64,000 nt of DNA from Streptomyces sp. DT2A-34. Lineage in GTDB: Bacteria > Actinomycetota > Actinomycetes > Streptomycetales > Streptomycetaceae. The notes under the pieces are model-generated. The model was not told where the DNA came from, did no database searches, and worked only from the letters and a program-made list of their open reading frames with translations. This document shows, one piece after another, positions 56,867 through 64,000 of this stretch. The stretch is from the NCBI RefSeq assembly GCF_030499515.1, contig NZ_JASTWJ010000001.1, positions 4,940,001-5,004,000 of the forward strand, written 5' to 3'. Made by a program: the position numbers and the translations under genes. How positions within the stretch are numbered: the first letter of the stretch is position 1; each line of letters opens with the position of its first letter.

Positions 56867-57242
56867 CACTGGTGAGGCCAACAACAGCCAGCCACAACGG
56901 CGGGTTCGTCGGCCGGTCAGGCGCGCGTATGCCTCGCTGCACCCCCACCGGCCTCGGCCTCGGCCTCGCTACCGGCTTGCGCCGTCGACCAGAGCAGAGG
57001 CGGCCAGAGCAGAGGCGGGGAGGCAGACCCGTGCGCGTGGACTCCATCACCTTGCGGGGTACCAGAACGCGGGCGGCGCCCGAAAGGGCAGGACTGGCCG
57101 GGCGAGGCGATCGGGTCCCCACCCGACGGTGGGTCAGGAACGACCGTCTCAACCACGCCGGATGGAGGACCCGCTAATCGGCTGACCGCAGCCGTTCACC
57201 GCCGTTGGTGTCAACTGGTGGTGTCAGCTGTTGATGTCAAAA

Positions 57243-57265
57243 ACCCCCGGACCGATGGTCCGGGG
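57243..57265 (-). terminator. tRNA-Ile terminator
   Basis: CCCCCGGACC (57243-57252) pairs with 57256-57265 around GAT. On the minus strand the stem is followed by TTTTT, so it ends transcripts coming from the tRNA-Ile side. It now follows only the 3' fragment of that tRNA. Confidence 0.8.
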
Positions 57266-57274
57266 GTCTTCTGG

Positions 57275-57321
57275 CTGGTGGGGCTAACAGGATTTGAACC
57301 TGTGGCCTCATCCTTATCAGG
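57275..57321 (-). other. att site: 3' part of tRNA-Ile(GAT)
   Basis: Read on the minus strand, about 47 bases match tRNA-Ile from the anticodon loop (CCTGATAA, anticodon GAT) through GGATGAGG, the T arm ACAGGTTCAAATCCTGT and the acceptor TAGCCCC-A-CCA. The 5' half (acceptor 5' strand, D arm, 5' side of the anticodon stem) is absent and replaced by unrelated DNA. This is the structure left at one end of an element that integrated into the 3' end of the tRNA gene. Confidence 0.85.
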
Positions 57322-57500: not shown

Positions 57501-58448
57501 TCAAGGGTGGGGTAGTAGGTCAGCGTCCGAGCACTGGTAGCCGCTCCCATGAGGCCAGATGATCGCCTGCCCAGCAGCGTTCGCGAGCCCAATGAGGTCA
57601 GCTCGGGGCTTGCTCGGCAATAGAACGGCTTGATACTTGGCGCCCACGAAGCGGTTGTAGTCGATCAGCTGACCCAGGGCCATACGCATATTTTCCCTCG
57701 TCACGCTGCCTTTGGCCTCGATCAAAACGTCTAGGTCTGGCACGTAGAGGTCTGTGAGGAGGGGCCTAGTCTCCCCTTCTGGCAGGATGCGTTGGCGGTG
57801 CACGCGGTAGCCCTTGGTGCGCAGGTACGCGCTGAAGTCCAGCACCAGCTTGCTTTCTCGGCGCTCGGCCTCGTACGGCTCGCGGTTCGGGTCAACGAAC
57901 GTCTTCTCGGTTTCGAGCCGCTCGATGTCGATCTCGGTGACCGTCTCACCACGCTGCTCCGCGAGTAGCCGGCCCAACTTCGTGCCAGGGTGCTTGGCTG
58001 GGATGTCCAAGGGGTGAAGCTTGAAGACAATGACCTTGCGCAGCGGGCCGTCTCCCGTCTCCGGCGCGTCTGCTTCGTACCATCCCGCGACGGCAAAACG
58101 GCCGAGGTAGGTCACGTTGCCGCGGGCGCCCTGGAAGACGCGCAGGGCTCGCCCCTCGGCCTCATGGTTCAGGATGCTGGCGTTTCCGGAGAGCATCCGC
58201 TGGTCTCCGTACTGCCCTTCCCCGCTGTAGTGGAAGAGCCCATCGGGCATCCAGCCGTCGTAATACCCATGCTTCTCGCCAGCGATCGGATCCGTAAAGA
58301 TCATCACGTTCGGCGTCTTCGCCGAGGGTCCGATGCCGCCCTGCGTCCGTCCGCCGTACTTGACGTGCAGTTGCTTGCGCTCGATCACAGCACCTGGTTC
58401 GAGATCCCACTCGATGGCCTCGTGCTCCGCGGAGCTCACCTCCGTCAC
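57501..58448 (-). CDS. Putative modification-dependent restriction endonuclease (SRA-like + PD-(D/E)XK)
   Basis: A 315-residue protein. Residues 15-120 look like the SRA-type module of ScoMcrA-like enzymes (GAVIERKQLHVKYGG, IFTDPIAGEKHGYYDGW, GEGQYGDQRMLSGN, FQGARGNVTYLG), which reads modified DNA bases. Residues 200-300 form a PD-(D/E)XK nuclease: D238, E244-A-K246 (PDLDVLIEAKG) and Q260xxxY264. So it would cut modified foreign DNA; the specific modification is not known. GAGGAGG precedes GTG 58448 by nine bases. It is the first gene inside the element and reads toward the att site. Confidence 0.75.
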   Translation of the reverse strand: MTEVSSAEHEAIEWDLEPGAVIERKQLHVKYGGRTQGGIGPSAKTPNVMIFTDPIAGEKHGYYDGWMPDGLFHYSGEGQYGDQRMLSGNASILNHEAEGRALRVFQGARGNVTYLGRFAVAGWYEADAPETGDGPLRKVIVFKLHPLDIPAKHPGTKLGRLLAEQRGETVTEIDIERLETEKTFVDPNREPYEAERRESKLVLDFSAYLRTKGYRVHRQRILPEGETRPLLTDLYVPDLDVLIEAKGSVTRENMRMALGQLIDYNRFVGAKYQAVLLPSKPRADLIGLANAAGQAIIWPHGSGYQCSDADLLPHP

Positions 58449-58494
58449 GGTTGCTCGCCTCCTCAGTCCAGCCGCGTCTACTACGGCTCGTCGT

Positions 58495-58783: not shown

Positions 58784-58921
58784 ATGGAGAAGCGAGAGCC
58801 TGAGGAGCAGGAAGAGAAGTCTGATCGCGGCCCGGACCCACGGTGGTTCCGGCTCCTGATCGCTACTCTGACCGCTGCGGCGGCTATCGCAGCCTGTGTG
58901 GAGCAGCTGGCGCGGCTCTAG
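58784..58921 (+). CDS. 45-residue single-helix membrane peptide
   Basis: A short gene with a good ribosome binding site (GAGGAGAAG) right before ATG 58784. The product is highly charged at first (MEKREPEEQEEKSDRG) and then has one helix (RLLIATLTAAAAIAACVEQL). The stop codon lies inside a perfect palindrome (CGCGGCTCTAGAGCCGCG, 58911-58928). Small anchors of this shape occur in mobile elements; I do not know its function. Confidence 0.55.
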   Translation: MEKREPEEQEEKSDRGPDPRWFRLLIATLTAAAAIAACVEQLARL

Positions 58922-59740: not shown

Positions 59741-60358
59741 GTGCAGCCGTTGGCAGATGACTTGGCACGTAATCGGCCCGGCGACGCGGTGCGCCGCAAG
59801 ATCCGGGAGTTGCAGCCGAACCCTCTGCTGAGACTGGTCGATCGGTGGCGGCCCGATACGGACGTCTACAACTGGGCTGTCGGCCTCCGTGGTGAACTGC
59901 TCACCGCCCGGCGACTGAGCAGGCTCCGTGGCCATGGATGGTTCACCCTTCACGCTGTCCAGTGGGTGACCGGCACGGACATCGATCACCTCACCATCGG
60001 GCCAGCCGGCGTCTTCTCCATCAACTCCAAGCGGCACCGGGGAAAGACGGTCTGGTACGGAGACAGGGCCATCACTGTGAACGGCACTCCTACCCGCCAC
60101 ATCGCGGCCAGTCAGTCCGAAGCGCGTCGAGTCTCCCGCACCCTGTCCGAACACTGCGGATTCGATGTGCCAGTCCGCCCCGTGATCTCTGTCGTGCACG
60201 CGGGGAAGCTCACCGTCAAGAGCGCCAATCCGCCGGTGCTCGTCCTCGCTGTCGATCAACTCGACCGAGTTCTGTCCGGGCTGACACCGACGCTGTCAGC
60301 CGACCAGGTGTCCCACATCTACGGAGTCGCACGGCGGGCTCAAATCTGGTCTGGCTGA
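59741..60358 (+). CDS. NERD-domain protein
   Basis: A 205-residue protein with a nuclease-related domain over about 45-170: GLRGELLTARRL, TGTDIDHLTIGPAGVFSINSK with acidic D80/D82 and the N-S-K at 95-97 in place of the usual E/QxK. The first 40 residues are a charged helix. NERD proteins are common cargo of actinobacterial elements; a DNA-processing or defence role is guessed from the fold. GAGGGGG lies before GTG 59741. Its end touches the convergent GntR gene without a gap. Confidence 0.8.
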   Translation: MQPLADDLARNRPGDAVRRKIRELQPNPLLRLVDRWRPDTDVYNWAVGLRGELLTARRLSRLRGHGWFTLHAVQWVTGTDIDHLTIGPAGVFSINSKRHRGKTVWYGDRAITVNGTPTRHIAASQSEARRVSRTLSEHCGFDVPVRPVISVVHAGKLTVKSANPPVLVLAVDQLDRVLSGLTPTLSADQVSHIYGVARRAQIWSG

Positions 60359-61117
60359 TCAGGCGTCGAAGTCGTACTCAAGGACGTAAGAGGCTGCGTC
60401 AAGCGTCATTTCGTTGATCTCCACGGGACGCCCCTCGTCTGCGAACGCGGTTCGGCAGATGAGTATGACCGGCGTACCTGCGGAGATGCTCAACTGTGCT
60501 GCCTCGTCCCTCGTGGGCATGCGTGAGCGGATCTCTTCGCGGAAGTGCACTGGCTTGTAGCCGAGTTCAGCAAGGCGGGCGTACGTTCCGCCGGGCCCCG
60601 TGTCCTCCTGAGTGATCGCCGACCCTGCGACCACCGCCGTGGGGAGATAGCTCGTCGCGAGAAGAACAGGCTTCCCGTCCAAGACAAACCGCCGGCGTCG
60701 GACGCAGACGGTGTCCCCTTCGCTCAGGTCCAACACCTGCCCGATCTGCTCCGGTGCGGCTTCCTCCGACACCGTCACTTGATCCACCAAAAGGGTGCGG
60801 TTCTCGATGTCGGCAGACCAGATGGACCGGCCGCTGCCCCACTGCTCCTGTGCAAGCCGCTGGATGCCTCGGCGCCTCAACGGGCGGAAGGATCGAACGA
60901 AGACGCCAGCGCCCTTGCGGGATTCGGCAACGCCCTCATCCTTGAGCACGCTCAACGCCTGGCGCGCTGTCATGCGAGCCACGCCATGCGCGGCCATCAG
61001 GTCGTTCTCCCCCGGAAGCCGATCACCAGGACCGTACTCGCCCGACTGGATCGCTTCTCGTAGAGAGTCCGCAATCCGCTGGTACTTCGGCCGACGGTCG
61101 TCGTCGGTGGTGGCCAT
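60359..61117 (-). CDS. GntR/HutC-family regulator (KorSA-like)
   Basis: A 252-residue regulator with a GntR winged helix (KYQRIADSLREAIQSGEYGPGDRLPGE ... GVARMTARQALSVL, about 11-75) and a UTRA effector domain (about 95-245). In AICEs such as pSAM2 the GntR protein KorSA represses the activator of replication and transfer. Here it is divergent from the small-protein/translocase genes, and TCTAGA palindromes fill the space between, so it very likely represses both sides. The signal that lifts repression is unknown. Confidence 0.88.
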   Translation of the reverse strand: MATTDDDRRPKYQRIADSLREAIQSGEYGPGDRLPGENDLMAAHGVARMTARQALSVLKDEGVAESRKGAGVFVRSFRPLRRRGIQRLAQEQWGSGRSIWSADIENRTLLVDQVTVSEEAAPEQIGQVLDLSEGDTVCVRRRRFVLDGKPVLLATSYLPTAVVAGSAITQEDTGPGGTYARLAELGYKPVHFREEIRSRMPTRDEAAQLSISAGTPVILICRTAFADEGRPVEINEMTLDAASYVLEYDFDA

Positions 61118-61638: not shown

Positions 61639-62979
61639 ATGACCGACCTGACGATGTGGCTGGAGGCCACGGGAGCCCTGGCCGGTGCCGGCGGTCTCGG
61701 CTACGCGAAGTACCGCGCACCGCGTGTGTACTGGTCGCTGGTCGGGATGCCGGTGACGTGGGGCCGCTTCACCCTCTCGTACCGGTCGACCATGGACGTG
61801 TGCGGGCTGACGGTGCAGCCGTCGGGTCTGCGGGCGTTCATGACGCGCAGCGTTGCCCGTCGTGAGGTTCAGCCGGTCCCGCCGAAGATCCGCCGGGTAC
61901 GCGGCACGTCGACCGGACTGCGGGTGACCCTGCGGCTTCCCGCCGGCCTGGAGCCCGCCGACGTGATCGCCTCCTCGGAACGGCTCCGGCACGCCTGGGG
62001 CGTCCACTCCGTGACCGTGGTCGAGACGAAGCCCGGCTTCGTCGAACTGCGGATGACCGGCTACGACGTGCTGCGCCGGGTGAAGATGCCCCGCAAGGCC
62101 GTACCCCACGACATGGCCGTTCCGGTCGCGGTGCGGGAGGACGGGACCGCGTTCGAGCGGGACTACCGCAAGGCACCGATGGCGCTCACCCTGGGCGCCA
62201 ACCACTCCGGCAAGTCCATGTATCAGCGCAACCTGATCAAGGGACTGGCGCAACTGCCGGTGGCCCTGGTCGGGGTCGACTGCAAGCGAGGGGTGGAACA
62301 GTCCGCCTTCGCGCCTCGTCTGTCGGCTCTGGTCACCAACCCCGACGATGCCAGCTCACTGCTCGGCGTCCTGGTCGCGGAGATGGAAGACCGCTTCGAC
62401 CTGCTGAGCCGTCACGGCGTCTCGGACCTGTGGGAACTCCCCGCAGAGCTGCGCCCGGTGCCGGTGGTCGTCCTGGTCGACGAGGTGGCGGAACTGTTCC
62501 TGATCTCCTCCAAGAAGGATGAGGAGCGCCGGGAACGGATCGTCACCGCGCTGATCCGCCTCGCGCAGATGGCCCGCGCGATCGGCATCTATCTGGAGAT
62601 CTGCGGGCAGCGCTTCGGCTCCGACCTGGGCAAGGGCGCCACCATGCTCCGCGCTCAGCTCACCGGCCGCGTGGTGCACCGCGTCAACGACAAGCAGACC
62701 GCCGAAATGGGCCTGGCGGACGTGGCCCCGGACGCTGTGCCGGCCGCGAGCCTGATCCCGATGAACCGCCCCGGCACGGCTGTCGCGGCGGACTCCTCGG
62801 GCGGCTGGTCGAAGATCCGCACCCCGAACACCAGCCGGGATGAAGTCGTGGCGGTCTGCCGGGAGTTCGCCCACCTGGTCCCGGAGCTGCCGTTCCTCGG
62901 CCCGTTCCGCCCTTACGTGCCCGCCCCCGCGCCGGCGGCCGGTCCGTCGCTGGTCAAGCCCCGCCCGGTCACCGACTAG
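61639..62979 (+). CDS. FtsK/SpoIIIE-type DNA translocase (TraSA/TraB-like)
   Basis: A 446-residue ATPase. Walker A is GANHSGKS (186-193) and Walker B VVVLVDEVAEL (about 277-287); the N-terminal part has a hydrophobic stretch (about 8-20) and no large membrane domain. Actinomycete TraB/TraSA proteins move double-stranded DNA between mycelia without relaxase. It is the conjugation motor of the element and is coupled to the small gene upstream. Confidence 0.88.
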   Translation: MTDLTMWLEATGALAGAGGLGYAKYRAPRVYWSLVGMPVTWGRFTLSYRSTMDVCGLTVQPSGLRAFMTRSVARREVQPVPPKIRRVRGTSTGLRVTLRLPAGLEPADVIASSERLRHAWGVHSVTVVETKPGFVELRMTGYDVLRRVKMPRKAVPHDMAVPVAVREDGTAFERDYRKAPMALTLGANHSGKSMYQRNLIKGLAQLPVALVGVDCKRGVEQSAFAPRLSALVTNPDDASSLLGVLVAEMEDRFDLLSRHGVSDLWELPAELRPVPVVVLVDEVAELFLISSKKDEERRERIVTALIRLAQMARAIGIYLEICGQRFGSDLGKGATMLRAQLTGRVVHRVNDKQTAEMGLADVAPDAVPAASLIPMNRPGTAVAADSSGGWSKIRTPNTSRDEVVAVCREFAHLVPELPFLGPFRPYVPAPAPAAGPSLVKPRPVTD

Positions 62980-63508: not shown

Positions 63509-63586
63509 ACCCCCGCCGGGGCTGGGCCGCCCAGACACCGTTCCCCGCCCGCCCCTGGCCCGACTCCCTGAAGGGAGGTGCCCCGC

Positions 63587-64000
63587 ATGTCCCGACCGAT
63601 CCGCCCGGATGCCGTACTCGTACAGGCTGTCATCGCCGGCGCGCTGTCCTTCGCCCACCTGCACGACTTGGCCGAAGCCGCCGGACAGACCGGCTGGAAG
63701 GCCTGGGCCTACCCGGTCTCGGTCGACCTGCTGTTGGTCGCCGCCTGGCGTCGGCTGCGCACGGCTCGCCGCGACCGGTCCGCCTGGACCTGGTTCGTGA
63801 TCGCCCTGTTCGCCTCGCTCGGCGCGAACATCGCCACCGCCGGACTCCTCGACCTGGCCCACGTGCCCGCGTGGCTGTGCATCCTCGTCGCCGGCTGGCC
63901 CGCCCTGGCCTTCCTCGGCGGAACCCTCCTGGTCCACTCGCCCACCGACGCGGCCACTCCTCCACAGCCTGTGGAAGAGGTGACCGCGCCGGAAGTCGAG
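63587..64000 (+). CDS. DUF2637 membrane protein (SpdB-like), cut by the window end
   Basis: The first 138 codons of a gene that continues beyond the window. Four hydrophobic helices are seen (AVIAGALSFAHLHDLA, AYPVSVDLLLVAAWR, TWFVIALFASLGANIATA, AWLCILVAGWPALAFLG), then a Pro/Glu-rich part. DUF2637 proteins are spread (Spd) components of actinomycete elements, needed for plasmid movement within recipient mycelium. AAGGGAGGTG lies 7 bases before ATG 63587. Confidence 0.8.
   Translation, partial: MSRPIRPDAVLVQAVIAGALSFAHLHDLAEAAGQTGWKAWAYPVSVDLLLVAAWRRLRTARRDRSAWTWFVIALFASLGANIATAGLLDLAHVPAWLCILVAGWPALAFLGGTLLVHSPTDAATPPQPVEEVTAPEVE

Follow-up and report, generated by a model that had tools for sequence, protein, structure and literature searches.

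A compact gene joining a ScoMcrA-type SRA domain to a PD-(D/E)XK nuclease at the att end of a Streptomyces AICE, and a deficit of C5-methyltransferase genes among its carriers

The window, which is the whole stretch of 64,000 nucleotides from Streptomyces sp. DT2A-34 analysed here, contains a restriction gene and neighbouring genes of an AICE. The restriction gene was found with the coordinates and strand given in a preliminary description of this DNA. The features of the locus are as follows:

57501..58448, minus strand, SRA-PD-(D/E)XK restriction gene of 315 codons (315 aa) with a GTG start
58458..58463, minus strand, ribosome-binding site AGGAGG, read from the sequence, 9 nt upstream of the GTG
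57990..58412, minus strand, ScoMcrA-type SRA domain, residues 13-153
58224..58265, minus strand, predicted flipped-base pocket, residues 62-75, from conservation and analogy with TagI
57504..57956, minus strand, PD-(D/E)XK nuclease domain, residues 165-315
57657..57752, minus strand, active-site stretch D233, E244-x-K246, Q260xxxY264, from conservation in a 41-row alignment
57274..57321, no strand assigned, att end of the AICE, copy of the tRNA-Ile(GAT) 3' end, 48 identical bases
59741..60358, plus strand, NERD-domain protein of the AICE (PF08378, E 5e-12)
60359..61117, minus strand, GntR/UTRA regulator (PF00392, PF07702)
61639..62979, plus strand, TraB/FtsK-type transfer ATPase (PF01580, E 2e-28)
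63578..64000, plus strand, continuing beyond the window, DUF2637 (Spd-like) protein (PF10935, E 9e-23)

The window protein has 890 homologues at E<=1e-3, and PF26348 was found in 120/120 of those listed (the best 120 of 890). Therefore, the ORF at 57501-58448 is not a chance ORF. Among the listed homologues the top identity was 96%; many carry the source name 'restriction endonuclease' and some 'ScoMcrA-like SRA domain-containing protein'. The dN/dS of the gene against 11 relatives was 0.08-0.19, and that of the nuclease half alone was 0.07-0.15 in four comparisons. The restriction gene is under purifying selection. An NCBIfam search with the window protein returned no family, and PDB matches to IBDV polymerase (E 0.11 and 0.21) and Ino80 (E 0.06) were taken as chance. 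Beyond Streptomyces, the gene was found in Azospirillum, Ferirhizobium and a Chloroflexi MAG, among others. Relatives were present in 23 plasmid records, with identity below 60% in every one, and in 2 of 50,697 phage records, both of Gordonia phage Sidious. In the viral contig set, neither of 2 pattern matches was confirmed as a relative. A divergent small ORF of 45 codons with a hydrophobic stretch lies on the plus strand at 58784-58921.

The gene had been described as cargo at the att end of an AICE, and this placement was borne out. The 3' end of tRNA-Ile(GAT) is duplicated in the 48 bases at 57274-57321, and the second copy lies inside the intact tRNA-Ile(GAT) at 68235-68311 on the window's scale (L075:12235-12311), past the right window edge. 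Between the two copies are the restriction gene, the NERD, GntR, TraB/FtsK and DUF2637 genes, RepSA (E 1e-154) and a tyrosine integrase adjoining the tRNA gene; a gyrA-like gene was read from the sequence beyond tRNA-Ile. The marks of an AICE (integrase, RepSA, TraB/FtsK and att repeats at a tRNA gene) are all present, and the element is an AICE of ~11 kb that is presumably mobile. The restriction gene occupies the att end opposite the integrase. A Pfam scan of eight AICE proteins, with four small element ORFs outside the scan, found no methyltransferase. Just outside the att end, 57163-57273 holds codons resembling an integrase tail (MEDPLIG, then a stop) together with a duplicate of the tRNA's downstream sequence. 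This segment, left of 57274, probably remains from an earlier element that had integrated at this tRNA-Ile. An empty insertion site was sought via tRNA-Ala(TGC) in 12 loci, one being that of the window and 11 those of relatives; no tRNA-Ile was found in their ~1.5-kb flanks. Parts of PMC9513070 describe AICE accretion in Streptomyces and restriction-modification genes as AICE cargo. The word 'restriction' is absent from the available main text of the AICE survey PMC3218068.

In eight distinct elements, including the AICE of the window, a repeat beyond the SRA gene was paired with a tRNA gene at the end that carries the integrase. The tRNA and the distance from the SRA gene to the repeat were as follows:

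Window AICE, tRNA-Ile(GAT), 180 bp
L044, Ala(CGC), 109 bp
L082, Ala(CGC), 2050 bp, with a further ORF within
L047, Arg(ACG), 124 bp
L054 (same contig as L087), Arg(CCT), 883 bp
L083, Pro(CGG), 951 bp, with a further ORF within
L084, Gly(CCC), 252 bp
L085, Gly(CCC), 240 bp, with three repeat copies

No integrase was found in L085 by BLAST, and a 386-codon ORF occupies its place. For the AICE-borne copies L086/L068 and L090/L049 the search for an att repeat was negative, and the available stretches of L050 and L058 yielded no integrase. The integrases found by BLAST were 23-44% identical to that of the window AICE, and RepSA and TraB mostly 50-90%. The order (Rep)-Spd-Tra-(GntR)-SRA gene was seen in 9/32 genome-contig loci (L044, L047, L049, L050, L051, L053, L054, L058 and L068), of which L050 begins after Rep and L053 has no GntR match. 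In L060 and L061 the Tra genes stand at a greater distance from the SRA gene. The remaining 21/32 loci gave no Tra or Rep match, and some of these contigs end near the gene (L043, L045, L046, L065, L071 and L073).

The segments GYYDGW (residues 61-66) and GEGQYGDQRM (residues 76-85), which had been associated with ScoMcrA, are present and align to its SRA domain. Residues 24-106 matched the ScoMcrA SRA in PDB 5zmn (E 2.4e-6) and 5zmm (E 4.8e-6), and the ScoMcrA SRA was the best match of the N-terminal half both by sequence and by fold. The canonical SAD_SRA model (PF02182) was missed, with 11.9 bits (E 0.19) against a Pfam gathering score of 30.7. In an alignment of 41 rows (A3), from which rows with a C-half of another kind were left out by choice, Y62 was conserved in 41/41, D64 in 39/41, Y74 in 41/41, and S or T at position 75 in 41/41. 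The pocket of TagI consists of Tyr55, Asp58 and Tyr67 according to parts of PMC6212794. The tyrosine spacing of 12 is common to TagI and the window protein, whereas the Asp is at Tyr+2 in the window protein and at Tyr+3 in TagI, that is, one residue nearer. By this analogy, Y62, D64, Y74 and S75 may form the flipped-base pocket. We infer this mapping, because ScoMcrA itself lacks the contacts of UHRF1/SUVH5 in the available text of PMC6224610.

The C-terminal half has a PD-(D/E)XK core fold with the D...(D/E)xK and QxxxY motifs. In A3, D233 was conserved in 41/41 rows, E244 in 40/41, K246 in 40/41, Q260 in 41/41 and Y264 in 40/41; in a 49-row alignment (A2) that includes some C-halves of other kinds, D233, E244 and K246 were found in 44, 42 and 42 rows. 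The proposed E244-A-K246 and QxxxY (Q260xxxY264) motifs stand at 40-41 of 41 rows. D238, proposed as the catalytic acid, is D in just 12/41 rows of A3, and its catalytic role was rejected in favour of D233. In the close family, the active site was intact in 25/25 rows. By sequence and fold matches, a domain of a modification-reading type and a nuclease are joined in one protein; these matches and the conserved residues support the preliminary reading of a ScoMcrA-like SRA module followed by a PD-(D/E)XK nuclease.

Orthologues in databases and the pairing of SRA with PD-(D/E)XK, the latter from MspJI, were already known. In the open-access literature, we found no experimental paper on the combination of a ScoMcrA-type SRA with PD-(D/E)XK, a motif name that is itself unsearchable, and none on PF26348 orthologues of Streptomyces. 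ScoMcrA (Sco4631; SBD-SRA-HNH; PDB 5zmm) is also from Streptomyces and has the same SRA type, being the best sequence and fold match. The window protein differs from it in having no head or sulfur-binding domain, in the replacement of HNH by PD-(D/E)XK and in its length (315 vs 561 residues). The MspJI family (SRA-like N-terminus, Mrr-cat PD-(D/E)XK C-terminus; PDB 4f0p) shares the order of domain types. Alignments with 4f0p cover both halves (Foldseek E 9e-9) but have an rmsd of 15-18 A, which indicates that the halves of MspJI are arranged differently. MspJI has 450 residues, and by Z its SRA is less like that of the window protein than those of ScoMcrA or SUVH5. Its active-site motif, as given in a part of PMC3874153, is (D/E)..(D/E/Q)XK, compared with D...ExK...QxxxY in the window protein. 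The SRA-HNH enzymes TagI, Sco5333 and Tbis1 are two-domain reader-cutters of similar size that read 5mC/5hmC (parts of PMC6212794); in contrast, their nuclease is HNH, and the canonical SAD_SRA model does not recognise the window protein. The 'restriction endonuclease' proteins of PF26348 in Streptomyces are direct orthologues, up to 96% identical among the listed matches, with no difference in architecture among 25 aligned rows. McrBC is an unrelated, NTP-driven machine. According to section headings of PMC2614495, it inhibits the establishment of a DNA methyltransferase gene. The effect proposed below, a barrier to methyltransferase genes, is the same, shown there by experiment and here by gene distribution.

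The same SRA type was found by tblastn or phmmer in other architectures. In Roseomonas p1318-6 (L102) and in L036 an HNH nuclease comes after it; in L019 the C-half after it matches XisH weakly, with E 0.004, which falls short of the cut-off. On a haloarchaeal (Natrarchaeobaculum) plasmid (L101, 3455-8417), it occupies roughly residues 182-323 of a 1,207-residue AAA protein. Pfam gave AAA models for this protein and nothing for the following 448-residue gene; the pair looks like McrB and McrC, that is, a McrBC-type system with an SRA reader. Two relatives (L103:4001-4927 and L023:1441-2430) keep the SRA and have lost the ExK motif, possibly forming a nuclease-dead subgroup of readers, and L029 has A and R where the motif should be. 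In L035:1336-2376, from a genome of the same class, an HU-type DNA-binding domain (PF00216) and a C-half like that of the window protein (residues 193-293 matched) form one ORF. Gordonia phage Sidious (L100:3995-6394) encodes the homologue gp63, which is 33% identical and in which E-x-K and QxxxY were recognised by eye; two N6_N4 methyltransferase genes come after it.

The distribution of C5-methyltransferase genes was analysed in 295 genomes of the genus, 67 of which match the window protein. These were sorted by hand into 15 close carriers (E<=1e-79), 40 distant carriers (matches to both halves, as a single piece or as two) and 12 one-part matches counted as non-carriers, giving 55 carriers and 240 others. 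C5-methyltransferases were scored as PF00145 matches by E value, and 238/295 genomes had a match. The cut of E<=1e-20 and the set of 40 distant genomes were fixed after the tables had been seen. At this cut, matches were present in 2/15 close carriers (p 6.8e-6) and 8/40 distant carriers (p 3.7e-10), compared with 174/240 others; for all carriers the figure was 10/55 (p 1.1e-13). At E<=1e-3, the counts were 6/15 (p 7.6e-5), 24/40 (p 1.6e-4) and, jointly, 30/55 (p 5.3e-7) against 208/240. The joint p was 1e-10 at a cut of 1e-30 and 8e-7 at 1e-40. Thus, 10/55 carriers have a strong match despite carrying the gene, two of them from the close family (G013 and G112), and 20 more have a weak match (E 1e-20 to 1e-3). 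The control N6_Mtase (PF02384), which matches 265/295 genomes, was found in 46/55 carriers and 219/240 others (p 0.13), and in 33/40 of the distant set alone (p 0.09). Among 11 genomes with a ScoMcrA-like gene (SRA-only match, ORFs of 495-625 aa), 1/11 had a strong C5 match, and 5/11 overlap with the 55 carriers. The only PF00145 matches of the host of the window are weak and in different reading frames (C1:4377019-4377568 and C1:8931481-8932655). The host also has a second, canonical SRA gene at C1:6397427-6397921 (L116; PF02182, E 7e-31). No report of a C5-methyltransferase deficit in carriers was found in the open-access literature.

A tree of one gene, gyrA (1,245 columns), was used as a phylogenetic control. 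It included the 55 carriers and 90 systematically chosen non-carriers, minus G032, which had no match, giving 144 tips; strong C5 matches were present in 10/55 carriers and 62/89 non-carriers. When each carrier was paired with its nearest non-carrier, the match was in the carrier only in 4 pairs and in the neighbour only in 35 (p 3.4e-7), and for the close family alone these numbers were 1 and 11 (p 0.006). At E<=1e-3 they were 3 and 20 (p 0.0005), and 1 and 9 in the close family (p 0.02). Shuffles within 5, 10, 20 or 30 clusters gave p 0.0002 each, and 0.0002-0.0004 at E<=1e-3. The Pagel test for strong C5 gave LR 38.97 (p 7e-8), with fitted C5 gain of 0.31 with the SRA gene vs 8.4 without it and fitted C5 loss of 7.7 vs 2.7, several rates being at their bounds. 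At E<=1e-3 it gave LR 19.0 (p 0.0008) in an unstable fit with one rate at the upper bound. For N6_Mtase, the pairs were 5 vs 9 (p 0.42) and the Pagel p was 0.47. The fitted gain of the SRA gene was 1.03 in genomes with C5 and 0.00 in genomes without. Because the fitted SRA gains occur only with C5, these data agree with loss of C5 after arrival of the SRA gene but not with C5 as a barrier to that gene.

From the domain folds, conserved residues, selection, AICE placement and C5-methyltransferase deficit observed here, we consider it very likely that the protein is a compact restriction endonuclease of type IV (modification-dependent) that has no NTPase part, is carried as AICE cargo and acts on 5mC (or 5hmC) DNA. 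Because carriers mostly have no strong matches to the genes that make the mark, the data suggest that the enzyme polices 5-methylated cytosine. We infer its working, including base flipping, cleavage and the direction of cause, as follows. The N-terminal ScoMcrA-type SRA would bind DNA and flip a 5-modified cytosine into the Y62/D64/Y74/S75 pocket, and the C-terminal PD-(D/E)XK domain (D233, E244, K246 and Q260) would then cut near the site, probably as a dimer. The closest working models would be TagI or MspJI, which flip and read a 5-modified cytosine and cut nearby. In the host, incoming plasmids, phages and elements bearing 5mC (or 5hmC) would be destroyed. Genomes with both an active cytosine-C5-methyltransferase and the enzyme would be restricted or inviable, and carriers would lose or never keep such genes.

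Other explanations were weighed against this enzyme reading. The same enzyme may have a main target other than 5mC, namely 5hmC, glucosyl-5hmC or another bulky cytosine modification of phages. ScoMcrA 'preferentially cleaves 5hmC modified DNA', as stated in a part of PMC7461809 that reports action on both 5mC and 5hmC DNA, and TagI shows a slight preference for 5hmC (parts of PMC6212794). However, what carriers lack are C5-methyltransferase genes, whose product is 5mC, and the same parts of PMC6212794 model a clash of the glucosyl group in TagI. An enzyme that reads both 5mC and 5hmC would be consistent with all of these observations, and we regard a main target other than 5mC as unlikely, though worth keeping in mind. 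The deficit could also be a by-product of clade structure or other defence genes and say nothing of the enzyme: the tree rests on one gene and 144 of 295 genomes, the cuts were chosen after a first look, the tests have no covariate for other type IV genes, and the host has its second SRA gene. Against this, the deficit persists in nearest-neighbour pairs, cluster shuffles and the Pagel test at two cuts and is absent for N6_Mtase, so that a by-product seems somewhat less probable still than a different target.

Two further explanations concern the use of the protein. The AICE might be protected against rivals by another route, such as conjugal immunity or silencing by DNA binding, with the nuclease dispensable. 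The gene's placement on AICEs and the relatives altered at the ExK motif (L103, L023 and L029) would agree with this, but the intact active site throughout the close family and the low dN/dS of the nuclease half make it highly improbable. Lowest of all we rate the idea that the SRA half binds DNA regardless of modification and that the protein serves as nuclease in a restriction-modification pair, ordinary or phage-borne. The two methyltransferase genes after gp63 in Sidious speak for it. The Pfam-scanned AICE proteins, in contrast, include no methyltransferase, and a crude methyltransferase motif scan of the ORFs of L043-L081 gave four matches: a homologue of the restriction gene itself (L081), one C5-like ORF ~6 kb from the gene (L059) and two amino-type ORFs 3.4 and 4.7 kb off (L063 and L046). 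A C5 deficit in carriers is also the opposite of such a pair.

With the type IV reading preferred, we put forward, tentatively and with more doubt than belief, that the AICE's own 5mC-dependent nuclease governs the host epigenome: it would hold a fixed end slot beside interchangeable integrases, spread genus-wide, and keep genomes nearly free of C5-methyltransferases and of rival elements bringing them. The enzyme reading gives a common, uncharacterised database family of 890 homologues a specific target and an effect that can be tested. In-silico evidence for what a type IV enzyme recognises seldom takes the form of a phylogeny-controlled C5-methyltransferase deficit. The data suggest an influence of AICE cargo on the methylomes of hosts and on the movement of methylated DNA, among it the dcm+ E. 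coli DNA used for Streptomyces engineering.
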